Assembly: GCF_041821045.1 (NCBI RefSeq)
Contig: NZ_JBGUAW010000002.1
Coordinates: forward strand, 124,001 to 188,000
Direction of reading: 5' to 3'
Source of the DNA: Thiohalorhabdus sp. Cl-TMA
GTDB taxonomy: Bacteria > Pseudomonadota > Gammaproteobacteria > Thiohalorhabdales > Thiohalorhabdaceae
DNA length: 64,000 nucleotides
In this document: piece by piece, positions 15,261-17,631 of the stretch
Layout: every line of letters begins with the position of its first letter
Position numbering within the stretch: the stretch's first letter is position 1
Program-made: the position numbers and the translations under genes
The notes under the pieces: model-generated
What the model saw: only the letters and a program-made list of their open reading frames with translations
Told to the model about the DNA's origin: nothing
The model's database searches: none

Positions 15261-15283
15261 GTGTAAGCACTTACACTGTGCTT
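15261..15283. promoter_or_regulatory. Overlapping inverted repeats between ubiE and nrdJ
   Basis: GTGTAAG-CA-CTTACAC (15261-15276) and the overlapping AAGCAC-N7-GTGCTT (15265-15283). They lie 108 bases upstream of ubiE and 200 upstream of nrdJ. An operator for an unidentified regulator is the simplest reading. Confidence 0.4.
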
Positions 15284-15345
15284 CTGTTGGGCCGGATTTC
15301 CCGGCACGGCGGGTCTTTGACGGCCATCAAATCCACCCTTGCAGC

Positions 15346-15393
15346 GGGCCATATATTCGGTTAGCTTGAATCGGGAGACACAAGATATTGTGT
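15346..15393 (+). promoter_or_regulatory. Pair of NrdR-type boxes upstream of nrdJ
   Basis: ACACAAGATATTGTGT at 15378-15393 matches the NrdR consensus (acaCwAtATaTwGtgt) at 15 of 16 positions. A weaker copy (10 of 16, core CCATATATTC) sits at 15346-15361. The two are separated by 16 bases, centre to centre 32, the usual three-turn spacing of NrdR box pairs. NrdR is the ATP/dATP-sensing repressor of ribonucleotide reductase genes. Confidence 0.78.
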
Positions 15394-15420
15394 TTTTCCA
15401 CAGATTCCACATTTTCCACA
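15394..15420 (+). promoter_or_regulatory. Three abutting DnaA-box-like 9-mers
   Basis: TTTTCCACA, GATTCCACA, TTTTCCACA follow each other with no gap, directly after the NrdR box. The outer two fit the relaxed DnaA-box consensus TTWTNCACA exactly; the middle one differs at the first three positions. DnaA control of RNR genes is known in E. coli (nrdAB), which makes this placement meaningful. Confidence 0.6.
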
Positions 15421-15421
15421 G

Positions 15422-15451
15422 CGTCGCCGCCATGGCCGTGCGGCGGCGACG
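15422..15451 (+). promoter_or_regulatory. GC-rich hairpin in the nrdJ leader
   Basis: Perfect 10-bp inverted repeat (15422-15431 with 15442-15451) around a 10-base loop, about 35 bases before the nrdJ start. No T-run follows. No cobalamin riboswitch core was recognised in this leader. Confidence 0.45.
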
Positions 15452-15486
15452 TTGTGGTTGCCATACCGTCAGCCCGGAGGAAACCC

Positions 15487-17631
15487 ATGACCGCCAAAGT
15501 CCAGCCGCTCAACGAGTCCGCCGCGCCGGTCCAGGTGGCGTTCCAGTCCGCTTCGCTCGACATCTGGGACAAGAAGTACCGCCTCAAGGACCTGCGCGGC
15601 GAGCCCGTGGACGCGGATGTGGACGGCACCTACCAGCGGGTGGCGCGGGCCCTGGCGGACGTGGAGGAGGCCGACAAGCGTGATCACTGGTACGAGCGCT
15701 TCCTGTGGGCGCTGCGCCAGGGCGCCATCCCCGCCGGACGCATCGTCTCCAACGCCGGCGGCCAGGACTACAAGCCCGCCACCTCCACCATCAACTGCAC
15801 CGTATCCGGCACCGTGGACGACTCCATGGACGGCATCCTCCAGAAGGTGCACGAGGCGGGCCTGACCCTGAAGGCGGGCTGCGGCATCGGCTACGACTTC
15901 TCCACCCTGCGGCCCAAGGGCGCCTTCGTGGCGGGTGCCGGCGCCATCACCTCCGGGCCGCTGTCCTTCATGGACATCTTCGACCGCATGTGCTTCACCA
16001 TCTCCTCCGCCGGCGGTCGGCGCGGCGCGCAGATGGCTACCTTCGACGTGGGCCATCCCGACGTGCAGGACTTCATCCGCGCCAAGCGCGAGGATGGCCG
16101 CCTGCGCCAGTTCAACATGTCGCTGCTGGTGACCCACGACTTTATGGAGGCGGTGAAGAACGATGGCTGGTGGCCGCTGGTGTTCCCCATCTCCGAGAAG
16201 CAGGCGGAGGTGGAGGACATCGACCTCCAGGACCCCGAGCAGGTGGTATGGCGCGACTGGCCAGGCAAGGCGGGCTACATCACCGGCGAGGACGGCCGCG
16301 TGGCCTGCAAGGTGTTCCGCACCATCAAGGCGCGCCACCTGTGGAACGCCATCATGTCCTCCACCTACGACTACGCTGAGCCCGGCTTCATCCTCATCGA
16401 CCAGTACAACGACATGAACAACAACTGGTACGTGGAGAACATCCGGGCGACCAATCCTTGCGGCGAGCAGGGTCTGCCCCCCTACGGCGCCTGCCTGCTC
16501 GGCTCCGTGAACCTCACCCAGTTCGTGCGCAACCCCTTCACCGAGGATGCCTACTTCGACTGGGCGCAGTACCGCGAGGTGGTGTCCGTGTTCACCCGCA
16601 TGCTCGACAACGTGGTGGAGATCTCCGGCCTGCCGCTGGAGGAGCAGCAGCGCGAGATCGAGCGCAAGCGCCGCCACGGCATGGGCTTCCTGGGGCTCGG
16701 CTCCACCCTCGCCATGCTGCGCATGAAATACGGCGAGCCGCCGTCGGTGGAATTCACCGAGCGGGTCTCCCGCGAGCTGGCCGAGGCCGGCTGGCGCACC
16801 GCCGCCGAGCTGGCCCAGGAGAAGGGCCCGGCGCCCATCATGGAAGAGCTGTTCACCGTAGACGAGGAGATGCTGCGCCTGCGCCCGGAGATGGCCAAGG
16901 ATGGCTATGGCGTGGGCGACACCGTGCCGGGCAAGGTGCTCATGGCCCGCTACAGCCGCTACATGCAGCAGTTCCCCCGGGAGATCACCGACCCCATCGC
17001 CGAGCACGGGGCGCGCTTCACCCACCACAGCTCCATCGCCCCCACCGGCACCATCTCGCTGTCCCTGGCCAACAACGCCAGCAACGGCATCGAGCCGTCC
17101 TTCGCCCACAAGTATTTCCGCAACGTGATCCGCGAGGGGCGCAAGTCCAAGGAGAAGGTGGAGGTGGACTCCTACGAGCTGCTCGCCTACAAGCAGTTCA
17201 TCGACCCCGACGCCGACCCCGAGGCCGAGGACCCGGCGCACCAGCTCCCCGAGTACTTCGCGGACACCAACAACATCGCCCCCTGGCAGCACGTGGAGAT
17301 CCAGGCCGCCGCCCAGAAGTGGATCGACTCCTCCATCTCCAAGACCATCAACGTGCCCCAGGACTTCGACTTCGACGAGTTCAAGGACATCTACCTCTAC
17401 GCCTACGACAAGGGGCTCAAGGGCTGCACCACCTTCCGCTTCAACCCCGAGGCCTTCCAGGGCGTGCTCGTGCAGGACAAGGACCTCAAGAACACCACCT
17501 ACCGCTTCGAGCTGGACGACGGCTCCACGGTGGAGGTGACGGGCGACCAGGAGATCGAGTACGACGGCGAGGTGCACAACGCGGCGAATTTATACGATGC
17601 CCTCAAGGAGGGGTACTACGGTCGCTTCTGA
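15487..17631 (+). CDS. nrdJ: Adenosylcobalamin-dependent ribonucleotide reductase, catalytic part (NrdJa)
   Basis: Class II ribonucleotide reductase that makes deoxyribonucleotides with a B12 radical, independent of oxygen. The redox Cys is in TSTINCTVSG (C104), the active-site cluster in TNPCGEQGLPPYGAC (N323, C325, E327), and the C-terminal barrel part in APTGTISLSLANNASNGIEPS. 714 aa; ATG with AGGAAACCC upstream. The protein stops after the barrel and a short tail (YDALKEGYYGRF) and lacks the C-terminal Cys-rich domain. That is encoded separately at 19416-20072, the nrdJa/nrdJb split known from Pseudomonas. Preceded by NrdR and DnaA-like sites. Confidence 0.93.
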   Translation: MTAKVQPLNESAAPVQVAFQSASLDIWDKKYRLKDLRGEPVDADVDGTYQRVARALADVEEADKRDHWYERFLWALRQGAIPAGRIVSNAGGQDYKPATSTINCTVSGTVDDSMDGILQKVHEAGLTLKAGCGIGYDFSTLRPKGAFVAGAGAITSGPLSFMDIFDRMCFTISSAGGRRGAQMATFDVGHPDVQDFIRAKREDGRLRQFNMSLLVTHDFMEAVKNDGWWPLVFPISEKQAEVEDIDLQDPEQVVWRDWPGKAGYITGEDGRVACKVFRTIKARHLWNAIMSSTYDYAEPGFILIDQYNDMNNNWYVENIRATNPCGEQGLPPYGACLLGSVNLTQFVRNPFTEDAYFDWAQYREVVSVFTRMLDNVVEISGLPLEEQQREIERKRRHGMGFLGLGSTLAMLRMKYGEPPSVEFTERVSRELAEAGWRTAAELAQEKGPAPIMEELFTVDEEMLRLRPEMAKDGYGVGDTVPGKVLMARYSRYMQQFPREITDPIAEHGARFTHHSSIAPTGTISLSLANNASNGIEPSFAHKYFRNVIREGRKSKEKVEVDSYELLAYKQFIDPDADPEAEDPAHQLPEYFADTNNIAPWQHVEIQAAAQKWIDSSISKTINVPQDFDFDEFKDIYLYAYDKGLKGCTTFRFNPEAFQGVLVQDKDLKNTTYRFELDDGSTVEVTGDQEIEYDGEVHNAANLYDALKEGYYGRF

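Follow-up and report, generated by a model that had tools for sequence, protein, structure and literature searches.

A predicted compact NrdR-DnaA operator at the promoter of nrdJ in Thiohalorhabdus

Could NrdR and the replication initiator DnaA act together on a class II ribonucleotide reductase gene? An earlier note on a locus of Thiohalorhabdus sp. Cl-TMA had proposed that NrdR boxes and tandem DnaA-like 9-mers before nrdJ link dNTP supply to replication initiation, and had cited E. coli nrdAB as using both proteins. The literature supports the precedent: E. coli nrdAB is bound by both NrdR and DnaA (PMC12176259, PMC8203912), with high DnaA-ATP repressing and low levels activating it (PMC8203912), and DnaA binds the nrdA and nrdD promoters (PMC11317965). 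We examined the locus in its window (the whole 64-kb stretch of DNA that was analysed), in two same-genus genomes (G001 and G002), and in other genomes of the class.

The gene downstream of the sites is nrdJ, as the earlier note had stated. Its translation (15487–17631, forward strand, 714 aa) matched TIGR02504 at 559 bits above the cut-off, and identified an adenosylcobalamin-dependent (class II) ribonucleotide reductase (RNR). A second NrdJ-like gene with 47% identity was found in the same genome (G000:C1:406822-408069), and the 320 bp scanned for it contained no NrdR box. Neither a class I small subunit nor a class III enzyme was found in the three genus genomes; thus, dNTP supply depends on class II enzymes. 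The genome encodes one NrdR, whose closest solved structures are E. coli-type NrdR. In its DnaA, domain IV aligns with E. coli 1J1V at nearly every residue, SKKRSRAIAAPRQ (PRQ motif) and GGRDHTTVL included. NrdR and DnaA are both encoded with conserved DNA-binding domains, and the predicted NrdR operator stands before an RNR gene. In G001 the nrdJ gene (G001:C7:130242-133508, near L111) is interrupted at about residue 320 by ~1.1 kb of in-frame extra sequence, probably an intein; the gap is present in several other families, and the window copy is without the insert.

Direct reading of 15346–15420 confirmed the layout that had been described. Predicted NrdR box 2 (15378–15393; ACACAAGATATTGTGT) is a 16-bp palindromic box near ACACWATATATWGTGT that matches at 12/12 informative positions, in keeping with the near-perfect box claimed, and it is the sole such match in the window (0 expected in shuffles). 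The weaker partner was indeed present 32 bp upstream, centre to centre, across a 16-bp linker (predicted box 1, 15346–15361; GGGCCATATATTCGGT), but it matches the consensus at only 7/12 positions. NrdR box pairs are usually 31–32 bp apart, an integer number of helical turns. The core CCATATATTYGGTTA of box 1 is common to all three genus species, and its identity as an NrdR box is plausible. Three DnaA-like 9-mers follow on the forward strand: TTTTCCACA at 15394–15402, adjoining box 2, GATTCCACA at 15403–15411, and TTTTCCACA again at 15412–15420. They stand in 9-bp register with zero spacer and end 66 bp 5' of the nrdJ start codon (15487). Two of them fit TTWTNCACA, as had been noted: 9-mers 1 and 3 are exact, and 9-mer 2 differs at the first two positions.

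Pattern searches of the 3.74-Mb genome found 43 copies of TTWTNCACA, from which ~0.009 pairs within 18 bp are expected. The window holds two copies of TTTTCCACA, both in the array (0.15 expected), and the same 9-mer occurs before dnaA and in origin-like clusters of the same genome. In G001, box 2 (16/16) and all three 9-mers were 100% identical, with flanks at 67–70%. In G002, where the flanks fell to 47–54%, box 2 was identical at 13/16 positions and the 9-mers at 9/9, 7/9 and 8/9, respectively. The middle 9-mer is thus the least conserved of the three; in G002 it reads GTTTCCCCA, with the CACA core broken. Allowing up to one mismatch, the triple matched 10 of 369 genomes of the class, seven of them among the 366 outside the genus; each of the three genus genomes had one match, always at nrdJ. 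Genome-wide counts together with conservation ruled out a chance origin of the triple. The register is kept in G001 and G002, the opposite of the non-conservation that the earlier note had named as counting against its idea.

Two similar origin-like elements, ~420 bp apart, lie at L186 4400-5040 (G000:C1 about 290.4–291.0 kb). They comprise TTTTCCACA-type boxes, both inverted and at 12-bp spacing, together with CTTGTGGATGGGTG and an AT-rich stretch. The pair is a candidate oriC with an internal duplication, and a third similar cluster is found at L187 4094-4128.

A consensus scan found no promoter, and the predicted promoter was placed by the geometry of other nrdJ loci. The pattern TTGACA-16/18-TANNNT followed by an NrdR box occurs at 74 nrdJ loci from 49 families (mirrored control, 5 loci), with the box mostly 9–12 bp past the −10. 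On the forward strand of the window, the predicted −35 is TTGCAG (15339–15344; TTGCGG in G001, TTGCAC in G002), which agrees with the consensus at 3/6 positions, and the predicted −10 is TAGCTT (15362–15367), which leaves 17 bp to the −35 and 10 bp to NrdR box 2. Transcription would start at ~15374, which would place the 9-mers just downstream, at about +20 to +46, and this position suggests repression. The ribosome-binding site GGAGG (15476–15480, forward strand) is kept in G001 and G002.

The predicted leader contains a forward-strand hairpin (15416–15457) with a 16-bp stem and a 10-nt loop, whose 5' arm includes CCACAG of 9-mer 3. Its fold z was −4.3 in the window, −2.1 in G002 and −0.5 in G001; the CCACAG/CUGUGG closing helix is kept in the three genus species and the hairpin interior has changed. 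Because the hairpin shares CCACAG with 9-mer 3, conservation of that 9-mer could partly serve the RNA. A B12 or other riboswitch was rejected, since the Rfam matches in the window were only tRNAs elsewhere, as was an intrinsic terminator, of which none was found, the hairpin being without a T-run. Hairpin-like leaders were seen by eye at other nrdJ genes (e.g., L005, L010, L079, L125). Farther upstream, an inverted repeat (GTGTAAG-CA-CTTACAC, 15261–15276) lies between nrdJ and a divergent UbiE-like methyltransferase gene; it is degenerate in G001.

The idea of joint control by NrdR and DnaA gained support elsewhere, in that predicted composites recur before nrdJ in other families. Thirteen of the 369 genomes have TTWTNCACA no more than 30 bp after an NrdR box (reversed pattern, 0), mostly before nrdJ (L192-L196, L198) and once before nrdA (L191). 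Before nrdJ, TTWTCCACA was present at 20/133 loci, in 13/80 families, whereas dinucleotide shuffles yielded 1.1 and the reversed motif none. The stretch 350–700 bp before nrdJ contained it at 6/130 loci, at least two of which are composites lying just past 350 bp. Most DnaA boxes before nrdJ have an NrdR box no farther than 40 bp away; in other families those beside NrdR boxes frequently lie 5' of the promoter and on the opposite strand, and the arrays are mostly beside the distal NrdR box. At L061, a MAG, NrdR boxes precede a run of four DnaA boxes in tandem, spaced by 2 bp. Because similar NrdR-DnaA pairings precede nrdJ in at least 13 related families, dNTP supply and the start of replication are probably coupled.

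Marinobacter loci (e.g., L076, L081, L105) have an NrdR pair at nrdJ spaced 31–32 bp, with a conserved, DnaA-like TTATTCACA 2 bp before the upstream box. We found DnaA boxes at nrdJ described nowhere in the open-access literature searched; a Cupriavidus paper names NrdR, nrdJ and DnaA boxes but treats each on its own, and was set aside as a prior description.

The spacing of the boxes is a separate matter. E. coli DnaA requires box pairs 2–3 bp apart, and a one-bp insertion impairs binding (PMC11317965). The window array, with its period of 9, departs from this rule, and a hidden 2–3 bp register was rejected because no partner at 11 or 12 bp scores above 5/8. Partner periods in the genus were 9 (6/8), 18 (8/8) and 20 (6/8). 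When periods from 8 to 20 were scanned for the strict boxes of 13 other families, partner boxes scoring at least 6/8 were found at 11 bp in eight families, at 12 bp in two, and at no other period; origin-like DnaA clusters in the window's own genome have 12-bp periods. Since a period of 9 was absent from other families, where partners lie at 11–12 bp, the zero-spacer register is a genus-specific variant. The spacer-less tandem design put forward in the earlier note is therefore borne out in part: the NrdR-DnaA composite recurs, but its 9-bp register is not shared by the recurrent sites. We prefer to read the outer 9-mers, 18 bp apart, as the putative functional boxes.

The NrdR boxes themselves showed a second recurrent arrangement. 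Strong box pairs before nrdJ were 120–260 bp apart in 64 of 73 cases (40 families), mostly 155–190 bp measured start to start, and only five of the 73 were at 31–32 bp. With one distance used per family, the distances lay near integer turns, phased with a period of 10.4–10.5 bp (R 0.43, permutation p = 0.0006). A genome-wide search found long pairs in 39 of 369 genomes (control, 0), and a coordinate comparison placed at least 32 of the matches no more than 700 bp from an nrdJ match. Examples at gammaproteobacterial nrdJ genes include L006, L011, L118 and L292. A divergent promoter at the distal box was rejected as the cause of the long pairs, because only 5/64 distal boxes have one, against 52/64 proximal boxes with a promoter where it is expected. 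A 2025 study reported a preference of NrdR for integer turns, either 3 or 4, and its genome survey covered spacers of up to 50 nt (PMC12051234); long pairs would thus escape detection, and we found no description of them in the open-access literature searched. The helical phasing of the 155–190 bp pairs suggests DNA looping by NrdR. More tentatively, and at somewhat less than even odds, gammaproteobacterial nrdJ may be under a looping two-site NrdR operator 15–18 turns wide, at which adjacent tandem DnaA boxes would let the initiator open or lock the loop; the window genus would then have a compacted, spacer-less version, with DnaA and NrdR abutting on the promoter.

For the window itself, we favor, with a probability of about 0.6, the reading that 15339–15420 is a compact composite NrdR-DnaA operator on the nrdJ promoter, through which the level of DnaA would tune RNR supply. 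With one or both of the outer TTTTCCACA boxes (about +20 to +46) occupied, DnaA would impede RNA polymerase leaving or passing the nrdJ promoter. The level of active DnaA would in this way adjust the supply of the cell's only RNR class around replication initiation. We infer the promoter position, the DnaA occupancy and the sign of the effect from sequence. Speaking against this reading are the spacing (0 bp, or 9 bp from one outer box to the other), the loss of the middle core in G002, a weak −35 that matches at 3/6 positions, and the presence of some DnaA boxes 350–700 bp before nrdJ as well.

Three other explanations were weighed. It is possible that only the NrdR part acts on DNA, and that the C-rich, G-poor leader UUUUCCACAGAUUCCACAUUUUCCACAG together with the hairpin forms a conserved RNA element (a 5'-end stabiliser, ribosome standby, or protein or Rho loading site) whose likeness to DnaA boxes is incidental. 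The 9-mers do lie past the predicted start, 9-mer 3 forms the hairpin base in three species, and a 9-bp period falls outside the pairing rules of DnaA. However, the outer 9-mers are exact to the DnaA consensus, and DnaA boxes beside NrdR boxes in other families are often upstream of the promoter, where they are without leader RNA; we regard this explanation as unlikely. Another regulator favoring 9-bp direct repeats might instead bind the tandem 9-mers, given that the register is kept in three species and its period is unlike that of DnaA arrays elsewhere. That proposal must contend with the use of the exact DnaA-box variant before dnaA and in origin-like clusters of the same genome, and with composites at other nrdJ genes that are plainly DnaA arrays, and we consider it quite unlikely. 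Lastly, the 9-mers could be a relic of an ancestral DnaA array whose 11-bp period shrank to 9 bp; it would then have lost binding and been kept only by recent descent. The degenerate middle box of G002 and the 11-bp arrays of ancestral type elsewhere agree with such a history, but box 1 at 9/9 and box 3 at 8/9 in G002, with flanks down to 47–54%, make it very improbable.

On the preferred reading, that of a composite operator, one of the closest known systems is the E. coli nrdAB promoter (NrdR and DnaA boxes, Fis, IciA), likewise an RNR gene with NrdR and DnaA sites, which in the window are predicted. The E. coli enzyme is class I and that of the window class II; the DnaA pair of E. coli nrdA has a 3-bp spacer (TTATCCACAaagTTATGCACT, PMC11317965), whereas the window has an abutting triple, in contact with the NrdR box and at a predicted position past the start. 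The DnaA-bound double boxes of E. coli (purH, polA, nrdD, DARS, oriC) are tandem 9-mers in the same direction, as here, but are spaced by 2–3 bp (PMC11317965) in contrast to zero. Canonical NrdR pairs (E. coli nrdHIEF and nrdDG; S. coelicolor nrdRJ) resemble the putative pair of the window in palindromic 16-bp boxes, a 15–16 bp linker, and promoter overlap (PMC12176259, PMC9110341); the window differs in its weak second box (7/12) and in the directly adjoining DnaA-like array. Other gammaproteobacterial nrdJ composites (e.g., L194, L193, L196, L198, L061) also place tandem DnaA boxes at most 40 bp from an NrdR box, but the period there is 11–12 bp and the neighboring NrdR box is usually a distal one, 155–190 bp before the promoter box.

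DnaA control of RNR has so far been detailed for E. coli class I nrdAB alone. If nrdJ carries NrdR-DnaA operators across more than 12 families, the coupling of dNTP supply to initiation would be recurrent and independent of enzyme class, and the window genus, with class II enzymes only, offers a clean test case. For the spacer-less array, the question is whether a 9-bp register is usable by DnaA; looping by NrdR can be tested directly on its long, helically phased box pairs.
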